Assembly (NCBI RefSeq): GCF_000744705.1
Contig: NZ_JQML01000001.1
Location: forward strand, 1,240,001-1,304,000
Length of the DNA stretch: 64,000 nt
Source of the DNA: Streptacidiphilus albus JL83
GTDB taxonomy: Bacteria; Actinomycetota; Actinomycetes; Streptomycetales; Streptomycetaceae
Direction: 5' to 3'
Position 1 is the first letter of the stretch; the number at the start of each line of letters is the position of its first letter. Positions 32,327 through 37,517 of this stretch are shown here, in pieces. The translations under genes were made by a program, and so were the position numbers. The notes under the pieces were generated by a model. That model was not told the origin of the DNA and did not search any database. It saw only the letters and a program-made list of their open reading frames with translations.

Positions 32327-33727
32327 TCAGACGAGGTACTGGCTGGTGCCGCGCGGCAGGTACGCGCCATGGCCGGCCCGGCCCCGGTACTCGCCGTCCT
32401 CGATGACCACACTGCCGCGCGAGAGCACGGTCCTGGCCCGGCCGGCGACATGGCGGCCCTCGTAGGCCGAGTAGTCGACGTTCATGTGGTGGGTACTGGC
32501 TGACAAGGGATAACCGGCGTGCGGGTCGAAGACGACCACGTCGGCGTCGGCGCCCGGGGTGATGGTGCCCTTGCGCGGGTAGAGGCCGAACATCCGGGCC
32601 GGGGTGGCGCAGGCCAGCTCGATCCAGCGGCGCCGGGAGATCCGGCCGTCCACGACCGCCTGGTGCAGCAGGTCCATCCGGTTCTCCACGCCCGGGAGCC
32701 CGTTCGGGATCTTCGAGAAGTCGCCCCGGCCCAGCTCCTTCTGCCCGGTGAAGCAGAACGGGCAGTGGTCGGTGGAGACCACCGAGAGGTCGTTGGTGCG
32801 CAGCGCCCGCCAGAGCGCGTCCTGGTGCTCGCGCGGTCGCAGCGGAGTGCTGCAGACGTACTTGGCGCCCTCGAAGCCGGGCTCGGCGAGGTTGTCGGTG
32901 GAGAGGTAGAGGTACTGCGGACAAGTCTCGCCGAAGACGTTGAGCCCGAGGTCGCGCGCGGCGGCGATCTCGGCGACGGCTTGCTCGGCCGAGACGTGGA
33001 CGACGTAGAGCGGGGCGCCGGCCACCCGGGCCAGCTGGATGGCGCGGTGGGTGGCCTCGGCCTCCAGCAGTTCGCGCCGGACCTCGCCGTGGTAGCGCGG
33101 GTCGGTCCGGTCGGCCGCCAGCGCCTGTTCGACCAGGACGTCGATGGCGATGCCGTTCTCGGCGTGCACCATGATCAGTCCGCCGTTGTCGGCGGAGCGC
33201 TGCATGGCGCGCAGGATGCGCCCGTCGTCGCTGTAGAAGACGCCGGGGTAGGCCATGAACAGCTTGAAGGAGGTGACCCCCTCCTCCACCAGCAGGTCCA
33301 TCTCGTTCAGCACGTCGGGGGTGACGTCGGAGACGATCATGTGGAAGCCGTAGTCGATGGCGCAGTTGCCCTCGGCCTTGGTGTGCCAGGCGTCCAGGCC
33401 GTCGCGCAGCGAGCCGCCGACCGACTGGACCGCGAAGTCCACGATGGTGGTCGTCCCGCCCCAGGCGGCGGCGCGGGTACCGGTCTCGAAGGTGTCGGAC
33501 GCGCTGGTGCCGCCGAAGGGCAGCTCCATGTGGGTGTGCACGTCGACCCCGCCGGGGACGACGTAGCAGTCGGTGGCGTCGATGGTCCGGTCGGCGGTCC
33601 ACCCGGACGCCACGTCACTTCCGGTGCCGGCGAGCGCGACCACGCGCTCCCCCTCGATCAGGACGTCGGCGTGGACCTCCTCGGCGGCCGTGACGACCAG
33701 CCCACCGGTAATCAGGGTGCGTGTCAT
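32327..33727 (-). CDS. hydA: Dihydropyrimidinase/D-hydantoinase
   Basis: 466-aa cyclic amidohydrolase opening dihydrouracil/dihydrothymine or hydantoins. Metal ligands are complete: GGVDVHTHMELPFGG (two His), the carboxylated Lys in EEGVTSFKLFMAYPG, His in LIMVHAEN and YVVHVSAEQA, and the catalytic Asp in VVSTDHCPFCF. The family marker SKIPNGLPGVENRMDLL is present. ATG at 33727 is chosen (GGGAG seven bases upstream; MTRTLITGGLVVTAAEEV is the normal start). It forms an operon with the LLM gene. The aminotransferase and nitrilase that would complete the pathway lie 9 kb away on the same strand. Confidence 0.94.
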   Translation of the reverse strand: MTRTLITGGLVVTAAEEVHADVLIEGERVVALAGTGSDVASGWTADRTIDATDCYVVPGGVDVHTHMELPFGGTSASDTFETGTRAAAWGGTTTIVDFAVQSVGGSLRDGLDAWHTKAEGNCAIDYGFHMIVSDVTPDVLNEMDLLVEEGVTSFKLFMAYPGVFYSDDGRILRAMQRSADNGGLIMVHAENGIAIDVLVEQALAADRTDPRYHGEVRRELLEAEATHRAIQLARVAGAPLYVVHVSAEQAVAEIAAARDLGLNVFGETCPQYLYLSTDNLAEPGFEGAKYVCSTPLRPREHQDALWRALRTNDLSVVSTDHCPFCFTGQKELGRGDFSKIPNGLPGVENRMDLLHQAVVDGRISRRRWIELACATPARMFGLYPRKGTITPGADADVVVFDPHAGYPLSASTHHMNVDYSAYEGRHVAGRARTVLSRGSVVIEDGEYRGRAGHGAYLPRGTSQYLV

Positions 33728-33827
33728 GCGCTGTCTCCCGTCGCACTGACTCATGAGGCCATGAGCGACAGCGTAGGCCCGACCAATGCGTCACGACAGG
33801 GACGACGCGGACGAAAATGCCCCCTTC

Positions 33828-33839
33828 GGGTGATCACCC
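33828..33839. promoter_or_regulatory. Perfect 12-bp palindrome upstream of hydA
   Basis: GGGTGATCACCC, about 100 bp before the hydA start, in the gap between hydA and the end of the methyltransferase gene. The position fits an operator of the hydA operon. No cognate regulator is identified. Confidence 0.35.
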
Positions 33840-33884
33840 CAAAGAGGCCCTTTTCGGCGCGCAGCCCGCCACGCGGTCCCCGCC

Positions 33885-35093
33885 TCAGCCCTCGCCCTCG
33901 ACCGACGTGTTGAACGACGGGACCGCGTTGGTCGGGTCCGCAAACCATGGTCGTTGCGCGCCCGAGGGGGTGACCGTGAGTCCGAACCGGTCCACCGGGG
34001 GACGGCCCTGGTCGGCCCACCACCGCAGCGAGCGCTCCACCTCGTCCCACAGCCTGCGCGGTCCGTGCTGGTACACCGTGGCCGCCGGTTCGCCCCGGCG
34101 GAACTCGACCGCCGCCCAGGACGGCGGACCGTCCAGCGAGAAGAACCATGCGTTCACCCCGGCCTCGGTGGCGTTGAGCACGTGTGCGACCCCCGGCACG
34201 CACATGCCGACGACCAGGCGGGCCGGGTGGAACTGCTGCTGCCCGCCGAGGTCGTCCGGACCGAGGCCCGTCCAGCTCTGCTCGGCATCGCCGGGGTAGT
34301 GCGTGACGTGGTTGCCGAAGCGGCCCCAGTCCAACCGCTGGTCCCGGAGCTTCATGAACGCGACCGGCCTCAGGAACGGCCCGGATGCGCTCCCGTCCGC
34401 ACGCACGGTGAGCTTCACCAGGGCATCGTCATTGGCGTAGTGCGTCCCCCACGGCGCGAGGACGACGCCGCCCGACCGAGTCTGCCGAAGCCACTCTGCG
34501 GGAATCTGCCGCACCCCCGCAGTGACGATCACCCGGTCGTAGGGAGCAGCCGCGACGTACCCGTCCGCGCCGTCTCCCCGGACCACCTGCGGGCGGAGCC
34601 CGTGAGCCGACAGCGCTGTCCGGGCCGCCACGCACACCACCGGGTCCACCTCGACCGTGACGACGTTTCCGCCGCCGAGGCGGCGTGTCAGCAGCCCGGC
34701 GTTCCACCCGGTCCCGGTACCGACTTCGAGCACGTTCATGCCCTCGGTCACGTCCAGGTCGCGCAGCATCTCAACCACCACGCTGGGCATGGACGCTGAG
34801 CTTGTCGGCACCGCCCCGGGCTGGGTACCCAGGTGCTTCCCGTCATCCCATTGGGTGACGATGGGCACGTTGGCGTGCGCCTGTGCCTCCCACTCGTCCG
34901 GGTCCTCGTACCGGTTGACGGCGGTGTTCGTGCCGGTGGTCATGGAGTGCGACCAGAACAGGCTCGGCAGGAACCAGGCACGCGGTACCGCCCGGAAGCT
35001 CTCGGCCCAATCGGGCGTCATGGAGCCAACGTTGAGAAGGAACCGCGCCAGCTCGTCGCTGGCGCGGGCCCCCTGCTCCGGTTCGGTGCTCAT
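33885..35093 (-). CDS. PIMT-like (protein L-isoaspartate O-methyltransferase family) peptide methyltransferase
   Basis: 402-aa protein. Residues ~20-75 contain a PIMT-type opening (MTPDWAESFRAVPRAWFLPS). Residues ~95-260 are the PIMT/Rossmann core: QPGAVPTSSASMPSVVVEML (substrate loop), MNVLEVGTGTGWNAGLLTRR (SAM motif I), NVVTVEVDPVVC, YDRVIVTAGVRQIPAEWLRQ and GGVVLAPWGTHY. A ~140-aa C-terminal extension (TGLGPDDLGGQQQFHPARL, WADQGRPPVDRFGLTV) is absent from housekeeping PIMT but typical of PIMT homologues in RiPP clusters. Its ATG overlaps the stop of the 44-aa peptide gene (ATGA), and its ribosome-binding site AAAGGA lies inside that gene, so translation is coupled. Probably methylates peptide Asp carboxylates. 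Confidence 0.85.
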   Translation of the reverse strand: MSTEPEQGARASDELARFLLNVGSMTPDWAESFRAVPRAWFLPSLFWSHSMTTGTNTAVNRYEDPDEWEAQAHANVPIVTQWDDGKHLGTQPGAVPTSSASMPSVVVEMLRDLDVTEGMNVLEVGTGTGWNAGLLTRRLGGGNVVTVEVDPVVCVAARTALSAHGLRPQVVRGDGADGYVAAAPYDRVIVTAGVRQIPAEWLRQTRSGGVVLAPWGTHYANDDALVKLTVRADGSASGPFLRPVAFMKLRDQRLDWGRFGNHVTHYPGDAEQSWTGLGPDDLGGQQQFHPARLVVGMCVPGVAHVLNATEAGVNAWFFSLDGPPSWAAVEFRRGEPAATVYQHGPRRLWDEVERSLRWWADQGRPPVDRFGLTVTPSGAQRPWFADPTNAVPSFNTSVEGEG

Positions 35094-35224
35094 TCCTTTC
35101 GGTGGCCCCCGTCCCCGGGCGGCGAGCCGCCGTCCGGCGGCGGCGGGGGCGGCGGTTCCCACGGCTGACCGGGGAGCCCGTCACCCCCCTCGTCGACGGG
35201 CCGGAGGATCGGAGTCACTGCCAT
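35090..35224 (-). CDS. 44-aa Asp-Gly/Pro-rich peptide, candidate RiPP precursor
   Basis: A small gene with a strong ribosome-binding site (GGGAGG) before its ATG. The peptide reads MAVTPILRPVDEGGDGLPG, then QPWEPPPPPPPDGGSPP, and ends GDGGHRKE. It carries three Asp-Gly pairs (GDG, PDGG, GDGG), the hot spots for aspartimide and isoaspartate formation, and seven consecutive prolines. Its stop codon is fused to the start of the PIMT-like methyltransferase. Size, coupling and Asp-Gly content suggest it is the substrate of that enzyme. It has no Cys, so lanthionine chemistry is excluded. Composition alone cannot prove it is expressed. Confidence 0.6.
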   Translation of the reverse strand: MAVTPILRPVDEGGDGLPGQPWEPPPPPPPDGGSPPGDGGHRKE

Positions 35225-35345
35225 GTGCTGGCCTCCCTGTGTTGGGTCATGCGCGGCCCACCGGGCGGATGTCCGACGGGGGTGATGCCCTGCCCCGGAA
35301 GGGACGGGAGCCTTTGGGACGGCGGGACGCAGTGGATCGCGCCCC

Positions 35346-35534
35346 TCATGACGCCTCAAGCGCGCGGCGGGCAGCACTTGCCTCGTTCTCGGGCGCGGGA
35401 ACACAGTTGGGGCATGAACAGGGGGGCATGGCCTGCGACTCGGATGTGTTCACGAAGGCGGTGGGCTCATAGTCCACGACCCGAAGCTCCCGCTCGACAC
35501 CCGTATCCCGGTTCACCACGTACACGCGAAGCAT
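35346..35534 (-). CDS. Small CxCxxC protein upstream of the peptide/methyltransferase pair
   Basis: 62-aa protein. The first half forms beta-strand-like sequence (MLRVYVVNRDTGVERELRVV, DYEPTAFVNTSES). The second has PPCSCPNCVP, a CxCPxC motif that could bind zinc, and ends in an Ala/Arg helix. Codon use is more relaxed than in neighbouring genes, like the rest of this small module. It lies 121 bp upstream of the peptide gene on the same strand, and is divergent from the XRE-TPR regulator. In-frame GTG codons slightly upstream (VADVLMLRV) are alternative starts. Function unknown; a second peptide substrate or a metal-binding accessory protein is possible. Confidence 0.5.
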   Translation of the reverse strand: MLRVYVVNRDTGVERELRVVDYEPTAFVNTSESQAMPPCSCPNCVPAPENEASAARRALEAS

Positions 35535-35670
35535 CAACACATCTGCCACCGCCCTGTGGCCCGTCCGCCCAGCAATGGTCCGATCGCCAACCCACCGAAC
35601 ACGTCCGTCACGCTCCCTTGCCCACGGCTGACCGTCACCCTTCTGGTTTACCGGCAGAGACCTGACCACG

Positions 35671-35690
35671 TAGGGGCACGCATAGGGGCA
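35671..35690. promoter_or_regulatory. Direct repeat before the XRE-TPR gene
   Basis: TAGGGGCA occurs at 35671-35678 and 35683-35690, 12 bp apart, 10 bp before the ATG of the XRE-TPR gene in the divergent region. Helically phased repeats like these can be sites of an autoregulating helix-turn-helix protein; the assignment is tentative. Confidence 0.35.
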
Positions 35691-35700
35691 TCCTGGTCCT

Positions 35701-36816
35701 ATGGACGTCGGGCTCTTGATCCGTGATCTCCGAAAGCAACACAGTTGGTCCCAGGGCCGATTGGCTGATGAGCTGAACGCGGCCAATGGTTACAGGACCA
35801 ACGTCACCCGCGAAGAGGTGAGCCGGTGGGAGCGGGGCAAGGTCACGCCCGGCCCATGGTGGCTCACCCGGTTGGCCACGGTCCTACAGGTGCCACTAGC
35901 CATACTGGAGAACCCCGCCATGTACCGACGTCAGTTCCTGACCACCGTCGCCGCAACGACGATTGCCCCGGTCGTCGGCAATGACCTGTTGTCGCACGGG
36001 TTCGCTTCCGCGCTCAAGGGCAAGCCCAGCGGGGACGCCTGGCAGAACACCCTTGAAACGTATGGCCGTGACTACATGTCGGCCGGTGCGGCCGAGCTCC
36101 AGCAGCGGCTCGCCGGCGATCTCGTCGTGTTGCAGCAGCAGTTGGACACCCCGGAGATGTGGCAGGTGGCCGCGCGCATGGCCACGCTGTACGCCAAGAC
36201 CTACCCCGGTTCCGACGGCACCAAGGCCGTGGACTGGTACCGGCTCGCGGCCGAAGCGGCGGACCGTTCCGGGGACACGCAGACCCGCGTCTGGGTCCGG
36301 GGCCGCGCTGCCATCGCCCTCGGGTACGAGGGGGCCGCGCTCCCCGTGGCAGGACGCTTCGCGGACGCTGCCCTTGCCCTGTCCGACAAGCCGTCACTTG
36401 GCAGGCTCAACGCCGTCATGGGCAAGGCCCACGCTGCGGTGAACCAGGGCGACCGGGCCACCGCCCGCGCACTGCTGGACGAGGGGCAGCGGGTGTTCGA
36501 CGTGGCCGCGTCCGGCGACCGGGAGGAGTCGGACTACGCCGTGCCGGAGTGGCGTATGAACGTCTTCGTCTCCCTCCTTGCGGCACGACTCGGCGACGAG
36601 CAGCGGGCGGTGAAGGCCCAGGACCGGGCCGCGGCGCTGCTCCCCGCCAGCCTGCCCCGCTTTCGCACGCACCTCGAAATGCACCGAGGGCTGATGCTGG
36701 CGCGAGCCGGGGACAGGGCCGGCGGGGCCGCCTACGCGCAGAGCGCACTGGACCGGTTGCCGCCGGAGAAGCACTCACTGACGCTCCGCATGCTGATGGA
36801 CGAGATCCGAGCCTGA
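35701..36816 (+). CDS. XRE-type helix-turn-helix regulator with TPR-like C-terminal domain
   Basis: 371-aa regulator. Residues ~4-70 are a Cro/CI-type helix-turn-helix (GLLIRDLRKQHSWSQGRLAD, TREEVSRWERGKVTPGPWW). A short YRRQFLTTVAATTIAPVVG segment follows, resembling a twin-Arg motif but internal, as is usual for this Streptomyces family. Residues ~115-371 are helical TPR-like repeats (WQVAARMATLYAKTYPGSDG, WYRLAAEAADRSGDTQTRVW, AAVNQGDRATARALLDEGQ) that commonly bind a peptide or protein signal. It is divergent from the CxCxxC protein/peptide/methyltransferase genes and is probably their regulator, which would be consistent with peptide sensing. Confidence 0.82.
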   Translation: MDVGLLIRDLRKQHSWSQGRLADELNAANGYRTNVTREEVSRWERGKVTPGPWWLTRLATVLQVPLAILENPAMYRRQFLTTVAATTIAPVVGNDLLSHGFASALKGKPSGDAWQNTLETYGRDYMSAGAAELQQRLAGDLVVLQQQLDTPEMWQVAARMATLYAKTYPGSDGTKAVDWYRLAAEAADRSGDTQTRVWVRGRAAIALGYEGAALPVAGRFADAALALSDKPSLGRLNAVMGKAHAAVNQGDRATARALLDEGQRVFDVAASGDREESDYAVPEWRMNVFVSLLAARLGDEQRAVKAQDRAAALLPASLPRFRTHLEMHRGLMLARAGDRAGGAAYAQSALDRLPPEKHSLTLRMLMDEIRA

Positions 36817-37517
36817 CGAGACTGACGCCTGCGGCTTGCCGACGGCAGGGCATTGCGCCCCGGGCCGGGCGTACGGGTGATGTGTTCGCAGGTCAGCTAT
36901 CCGCGATGGCCGCGTGCAGGGCCAAGGCTGTGGCGAGCGTGGCGCCGCCCAGCTCGATACCGGCCAGGAGCTCGATACCGGCCTGGAGCTCGGTCCCGGA
37001 CGGCAGTTGACCAGCCACCGGCGCGGCGATGTCACGGAGCAGCGCGAGATCGCTCGCTCTGCAACCGGTACTTGTCCATGCGCGGGCGATCGCCGGCGAT
37101 CGCGCCCGGCAGAGCGAGGGCGTCGACGCCCCCCGCGCTGAGGGCTTGCCGCATCCGGCCAGGGAATCGGGGCTCATCGCGGCGACAGTACCCCCGTTGC
37201 GGGCACGGGCCCCGGGCCACCGGCCGATCGCCGGGCCGCGCCCGGTGGTCGACGCACCAGGCCCACGCCTGCCGGGGGCAGACTGGCGGAGGGGGGACGG
37301 AGTGTCGCCAGGGGGCCGGAGTCGCGTCGGCGGCCTGGTATTCCGGGATTGGCGCGGTGGAGGTCGAGAGTGGCCAGCCTTCCAGGCTCTCATATCCCCA
37401 AGCAAGTTCTGCGGTCGTCACCAAGTATTTCCCCTTTTGACATATACGCGCCATCTACGCGCGTTTCACTCGACACCGGCAGGACGAGTCAGGGCGAGAT
37501 CGGGTGGGGTTGGGACG
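36817..37517. other. 701-bp region without a confident gene
   Basis: Minus-strand frames here show scraps of plausible protein: one ends LALLRDIAAPVAGQLPSGTE then ELQAGIELLAGIELGG at 36893, another reads QALSAGGVDALALPGAIAG around 37100. They are in different frames, so at most this is a frameshifted relic. The 3' part (37380-37517) is AT-richer and includes TTGACA at 37437-37442; it is the probable promoter of the ABC transporter operon. Confidence 0.4.
36951..36999. repeat. Tandem 18-bp repeat (about 2.7 copies)
   Basis: AGCTCGATACCGGCCAGG at 36951-36968, AGCTCGATACCGGCCTGG at 36969-36986, and a partial AGCTCGGTCCCGG copy. The unit is a multiple of three and would encode an (L/Q)AGIEL-type repeat in the minus-strand relic frame. 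Confidence 0.65.

Follow-up and report, generated by a model that had tools for sequence, protein, structure and literature searches.

A probable imiditide (type I pamtide) gene pair in Streptacidiphilus albus JL83 and the XRE-family regulators upstream of its relatives

The window, a 64,000-nucleotide stretch of the Streptacidiphilus albus JL83 genome (contig NZ_JQML01000001.1, positions 1,240,001 to 1,304,000), contains a two-gene locus in which a small Gly/Pro/Asp-rich peptide gene overlaps the gene for a PIMT-like methyltransferase, and we are confident that the two form an imiditide, or type I pamtide, pair; the kind is already described and this locus is a further member of it. Judging by the behaviour of characterised relatives, one aspartate of the peptide is very probably converted by the enzyme into a reactive ring, and the recurrence of an XRE-family regulator next to related pairs suggests that their expression is controlled or that they act in regulation. 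The features of the locus are listed in Table 1.

Table 1. Features of the precursor-methyltransferase locus (window coordinates)
Feature	Position	Strand	Basis
PIMT-like peptide L-aspartyl O-methyltransferase (PAMT), 402 aa	33885..35093	-	PF01135, TIGR04188, predicted structure
WXXXGXP motif (WADQGRP, residues 359-365) in the C-terminal domain	33999..34019	-	Alignment of 30 rows
Precursor peptide gene, probable type I pamtide/imiditide, 44 aa	35090..35224	-	Sequence, family alignment, pN/pS
ATGA overlap of precursor stop and methyltransferase start	35090..35093	-	Sequence
Codon of invariant Asp31, likely methylation site	35132..35134	-	Asp in 64/64 aligned precursors; modified status inferred
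Shine-Dalgarno sequence GGGAGG of the precursor gene	35232..35237	-	Sequence; 7 bases 5' of the ATG
Small CxCPxC ORF, 62 aa if started at the internal ATG, between precursor and XRE gene	35346..35534	-	No Pfam match
XRE-family regulator (HTH_31), 371 aa, divergent from the precursor	35701..36816	+	Pfam PF13560, 37.7 bits

The precursor gene runs on the minus strand from an ATG at 35224 to a TGA stop at 35092-35090 and is translated as MAVTPILRPVDEGGDGLPGQPWEPPPPPPPDGGSPPGDGGHRKE (44 aa). An earlier note on this DNA gave the peptide gene a ribosome-binding site of its own and a stop codon overlapping the methyltransferase start, and both can be read directly: GGGAGG precedes the ATG by 7 bases, and the enzyme ATG (35093-35091) overlaps the precursor stop within the ATGA at 35093-35090. 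The composition described there is likewise borne out by the translation, with Asp-Gly pairs at D15, D31 and D38, a run of seven prolines (P24-P30) and no Cys. Gly makes up 20.5% of the residues, Pro 29.5% and Asp 9.1%, with one Thr, one Ser and one Lys, and the charged termini are acidic on the N-terminal side (D11, E12, D15) and basic on the C-terminal side (H41, R42, K43).

Type I pamtides are described by Lee et al. 2023 (PMC10787088) as two-gene loci of a precursor and a PAMT in which a linear peptide is modified; imiditide is a competing name (Cao et al. 2023, JACS, as given in PMC10787088 and PMC13001092). The precursors are ~45 aa long, average 17.3% Gly, 16.8% Pro and 10.2% Asp, and have a conserved Asp near a conserved Pro or Gly and conserved charged termini (PMC10787088). 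The imiditide systems NmaA/NmaM from Nonomuraea maritima and SpaA/SpaM share with the window the two-gene arrangement (PMC10787088, PMC13001092), a linear precursor of about this length and composition with a conserved Asp beside Pro or Gly and a basic C-terminus, and an enzyme with a C-terminal domain carrying WXXXGXP. The window pair differs from them in its own sequence, its seven-proline run, its single Lys, and the divergent XRE gene and CxCPxC ORF that adjoin it; the modified Asp of NmaA is followed by His, whereas the candidate Asp31 is followed by Gly. Cysimiditides, or type II pamtides (FcaA, TceA), follow the same two-gene logic, but their precursors have two CXXCXGXG zinc (tetracysteine) motifs and the window peptide has no Cys.

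SpaA/SpaM, the model pair of Lee et al. 2023, comes from Streptomyces sparsogenes DSM 40356 (PMC10787088). A search of an S. sparsogenes genome returns 8 homologues of the window enzyme, three of which are accompanied by precursors of the window's kind (beside L177, L178 and L180). This genome is titled ATCC 25498, which we take to be the same strain as DSM 40356. The statement in the earlier note that the precursor matches no known RiPP precursor is thus superseded, as the peptide belongs to the type I pamtide family and S. sparsogenes has three such pairs.

The methyltransferase was predicted to consist of a PIMT core with a long C-terminal extension, and this architecture is recovered: the PCMT core (Pfam PF01135) occupies residues 98-252 with 96.2 bits, and an AlphaFold2 model (pLDDT 87.3) places an additional domain after it. 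The predicted elements of that domain are E271-275, H290-298, E302-308, E312-319, E326-332, E338-343 and H348-361, and judged by their order the domain matches the arrangement of RiPP-type PIMTs; a C-terminal domain of >100 aa with a beta-alpha-beta4-alpha order is reported for this PAMT clade (PMC10787088). Within it, a 30-row enzyme alignment has W359 in every row and G363 and P365 in at least 90% of rows, corresponding to the WXXXGXP motif common to lassimiditide, graspimiditide and imiditide enzymes (PMC13001092). The top NCBIfam match of the enzyme is TIGR04188, the methyltransferase of an ATP-grasp peptide maturase system, over residues 26-380; its 304.4 bits lie under the curated cut-off of 380, a point against the imiditide assignment, and all 30 rows of the alignment match the same model at E 1e-20 or better.

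The PF01135 core would also suit an ordinary repair PIMT that happens to be preceded by an unrelated small ORF, and the enzyme profile does match PDB repair PIMTs over the core. The Thermotoga maritima enzyme (1DL5), which has a C-terminal extension of its own, shares the SAM-binding catalytic core and is matched at positions 97-218 only in the sequence-profile comparison. However, the repair-PIMT models score far under their cut-offs (TIGR00080 76.5 against 159 bits, NF001453 96.2 against 188), the C-terminal domain with WXXXGXP is of the RiPP type, and the partner is a conserved small ORF with an invariant Asp. We consider a repair role very improbable.

The earlier note proposed an imiditide-like minimal locus without an accompanying lanthionine or ATP-grasp gene, and the surroundings agree with this, with a conserved peptide, a RiPP-type PIMT and neither kind of enzyme nearby. 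The nine neighbour ORFs scanned between 28.7 and 42.9 kb comprise a PNPOx, a TetR regulator, a luciferase-like protein, an amidohydrolase, 3 sugar ABC components, a HAD protein and one ORF without matches, with no lanthionine or ATP-grasp enzyme among them, and a search with one ATP-grasp maturase model (TIGR04187) finds nothing within 0.7 Mb of the pair. The host genome is a single contig of 9.9 Mb, and its only TIGR04187 match (G000:484672-484788) scores 41 bits against 350, lies 0.79 Mb away beside another PAMT homologue, and is comparable to weak matches that arise in control genomes as well. Three type I pairs are present in this genome (the window pair, L025/L066 and L026/L067), the two outside the window being located at G000:8376574 and G000:8640541; three further homologues (L028, L030 and L031, 38-45% core identity) adjoin genes that resemble, by eye, those of lanthipeptide-type enzymes.

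These observations bear on the idea that the enzyme is an orphaned tailoring enzyme of a graspetide (graspimiditide) system whose ATP-grasp partner lies elsewhere. It draws on the best NCBIfam match being the methyltransferase of an ATP-grasp system, and the graspimiditides (group 13 graspetides such as fuscimiditide and amycolimiditide) do share the homologous TIGR04188 methyltransferase family with the window. The window differs from them in having no ATP-grasp gene found near it, no Thr-rich core and a score on TIGR04188 below the cut-off; the peptide's one Thr and one Ser compare with several Thr-Asp ester links in graspimiditides (PMC13001092), and the lone TIGR04187 match is weak, remote and next to a different PAMT. 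We give this explanation scarcely any credence.

Relatives of the pair were collected through the enzyme, because the peptide as a database query retrieved itself only (1 protein) in a search that needs shared words. Within the family, at least 112 of 394 genomes match the enzyme at E 1e-90 or better, at no fewer than 150 places, both counts being lower bounds since the genome survey scored 4 candidates per genome. The sample of 81 loci consists of the window, twenty loci (L001-L020) out of 23 from named genomes (L021-L023, which are core-only matches, were left out), 59 of the 150 listed places, chosen by hand as most of the top 45 followed by a sample, and the third pair of the window's own genome; dropping the near-duplicates L079 and L121 leaves 79. 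Precursor candidates were called by a motif-free rule (ATG or GTG start, a Shine-Dalgarno-like stretch, 30-75 aa, stop near the enzyme start), and at each locus the ORF highest in Gly+Pro+Asp was taken when it reached at least 38%, a choice that favours Asp-bearing peptides, though no single fixed Asp.

Under this rule an adjacent Gly/Pro/Asp-rich small ORF is present in 73 of the 79 loci, so that the small ORF does recur beside related methyltransferases, and the lack of conservation that the earlier note named as refuting its proposal is not observed. In a separate, motif-based count, 62 of 73 loci have the precursor stop no more than 10 bases from where the enzyme is expected to begin. Alignment with the window peptide is possible for 64 of the 73 motif-free candidates, and the other 9 constitute a second class. 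P18, P28, P30, D31 and P35 are present in all 64 aligned precursors and G32 in 59 (with Ser in 3), while the charged positions are more variable (D11 in 13, D15 in 50, H41 in 41, R42 in 45 and K43 in 36). All three Asp-Gly pairs had been put forward as preferred modification sites. Asp31 retains that status, being conserved in 64/64; Asp15 (50/64) and Asp38 (37/64) vary, and the other two pairs are therefore not required. By this alignment Asp31, within PPPDGG, is the sole conserved candidate site of the three.

The ATGA overlap could also mean that the small ORF is a mere leader whose translation is coupled to that of the enzyme. The invariance of four prolines and one aspartate speaks against this, as does a pN/pS below 1 in 16/16 close precursor pairs (range 0.12-0.62), pairs that were hand-picked and are partly non-independent. 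Selection of this kind together with recurrence beside the enzyme indicates that the peptide gene is more than a chance ORF, and a leader function alone seems hardly credible. Scanned as a control, the flanks of the 79 loci yield two precursor-like ORFs, at L098 and L116, each lying downstream and clearly an additional precursor of this family; the L116 stretch has a second enzyme place too, and that of L098 a single enzyme match. At L006 two precursor-like ORFs stand in tandem ahead of one enzyme.

Six loci have no scored precursor. L116 has a peptide, with 36% Gly+Pro+Asp; L005 is truncated by a contig end; the precursor of L070 is disrupted and its conserved Asp is gone; and none is seen at L004, L074 and L107. 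The last four count against the imiditide reading, as the enzyme can evidently occur without an obvious peptide; its retention there could reflect decay, an assembly error or a substrate encoded elsewhere. The nine loci of the second class count against it too: their precursors carry DDSxSG, mostly with HGGGGSDEGGNTSDG, and have several Asp but no PD motif. They are found at L016, L017, L019, L020, L067 and L122-L125, in a separate enzyme clade.

At the 1e-60 threshold or better the enzyme is present in 5 of 14 genomes of the genus, and the window XRE in 1 of 14. Homology with the genus ends near 33720 and restarts near 37365; the enzyme, precursor, small ORF and XRE gene therefore share a stretch unseen at these flanks in the other genomes. 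A clean insertion of the locus was considered and rejected, as the flanks are 1.1-1.3 Mb apart in G011, G012 and G013, the three genomes in which a single contig holds both flanks, and window positions 33720-37365 are thus a rearranged junction. Among 72,556 plasmid records, 16 carry a relative of the PAMT (E 1e-60 or better); the plasmid relative H1, from Streptomyces sp. HUAS 15-9, has no annotated gene directly before the enzyme in a gene table that is incomplete. The CxCPxC ORF is possibly a further gene of the window locus, and a similar ORF is seen by eye upstream of the pair at L067. CxCxxC small ORFs as general partners were rejected, with 7 loci having one upstream and 6 downstream (n=79).

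The recurrent genes upstream of the pairs are XRE-family regulators together with DUF5753, DUF397 and DUF6879 genes. Of the 79 loci, 58 have an XRE start 100-3500 bases upstream and 6 have one 1200-4600 bases downstream, as scored with a general XRE profile that was seeded mainly from ORFs of these loci and may favour the kinds present there. In the 74 loci with both flanks the counts are 54 upstream and 6 downstream, and the discordant loci divide 52:4 (two-sided p 1.1e-11). Within 1.5 kb upstream an XRE is found in 45 of 78 loci, and in three 1.5-kb bins downstream in 4, 2 and 3 of 76. The accessory genes show the same asymmetry, with DUF397 at 21 loci upstream and 5 downstream and DUF6879 at 20 and 1 (n=79). 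At L083 three or four tandem DUF6879 ORFs directly follow the enzyme, and another DUF6879-XRE pair lies upstream. In 15 of the 21 loci with a co-directional DUF5753-type XRE, 203-285 bases separate the end of the regulator gene from the enzyme, a space that the precursor fills.

On an enzyme tree of 79 rows, made by a quick method and with 21 of 76 inner branches weak, five regulator states ('none' included) require 33 changes compared with a shuffled mean of 46.1, which shows that they cluster yet are frequently swapped; when each of the five states is scored by itself, the well-supported branches already demand 12, 12, 7, 12 and 5 changes. A single change accounts for the precursor class on the same tree. 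Mirror-tree comparisons of methyltransferase and XRE distances give r 0.29 (n=20) and r 0.48 (n=16), with the kinship of the species uncontrolled. Neither PMC10787088 nor PMC13001092 mentions XRE-type regulators at pamtide loci in its main text, and nothing of the kind appears among the results of the literature searches.

The window XRE possibly regulates the pair. In RRNPP-like peptide-sensing XRE regulators a TPR peptide-binding domain follows the HTH; for the window protein only the HTH is matched in Pfam, and the PDB profile hits are weak (PlcR HTH, E 0.28). It was rejected as a dedicated partner, as a PAMT lies within 1.5 kb in 4 of 27 loci of its XRE family. One of those 4 adjoins an apparent ATP-grasp fragment, identified by eye.

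As an extension of the imiditide assignment, the pair may work within an XRE module, the regulator controlling the pair or sensing the modified peptide, with the product an intracellular signal and not a secreted antibiotic. We advance this tentatively, as a real possibility towards which we do not lean. The upstream bias of XRE, DUF397 and DUF6879 genes argues for it, as do the 33 changes of regulator state set beside one change of precursor class and the precursor-sized gap left by the co-directional DUF5753 loci. Exporters, proteases and second modification enzymes are absent from any fixed place among the 30 largest neighbour-ORF clusters (grouped by single linkage and named by eye), and the lack of the first two likewise counts in its favour.

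Several observations weigh the other way. An upstream regulator is common for a small operon and local regulators are expected for many clusters, so that the asymmetry alone need mean only local control. By the profile test 21 of the 79 loci have no upstream XRE, the window's XRE family is a generalist one, and the kind of regulator is clustered on the tree. In S. coelicolor, XRE/DUF397 pairs are regulators of development and of antibiotic production (PMC10364602). XRE, DUF397 and DUF5753 genes are noted beside graspetide clusters as well (PMC13097080, PMC8939145), and ABC-type ATPases (8 of 79 loci) and MFS-like proteins (7 of 79), named by eye, do occur, at scattered places.

A more specific form of the XRE-module reading, which we think unlikely, would make the pairs the effector arm of XRE modules in Streptomycetaceae, varied XREs having been repeatedly placed upstream of one precursor-PAMT unit. 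The aspartimide/isoAsp switch at Asp31 would then be an intracellular signal read by, or feeding back on, the regulator, for instance as a methylation/hydrolysis timer. The XRE kinds concerned would be DUF5753 with DUF6879, upstream and co-directional; DUF5753 with DUF397, divergent; and others like that of the window.

For the pair itself, we propose a sequence of steps in which the reaction, its site and the recognition by charge are modelled on characterised relatives. Translation of the linear peptide would start at a ribosome-binding site of its own, and that of the enzyme would probably be coupled to it. The enzyme would recognise the linear peptide before modification, with the peptide's acidic N-terminal part and basic HRK tail as the probable contacts, and use SAM to methylate one Asp, most likely Asp31. 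The methyl ester would close spontaneously to an aspartimide (-18 Da), and hydrolysis of the ring would give a mixture of isoAsp and Asp.

A review counts 1414 type I loci, with two products made in E. coli, and regards finding a biological function for aspartimide peptides as the bigger challenge (PMC13001092). The alignment narrows the family's candidate modification site to one Asp, and the strong, asymmetric association with XRE regulators provides a concrete, testable handle on the function of these peptides.
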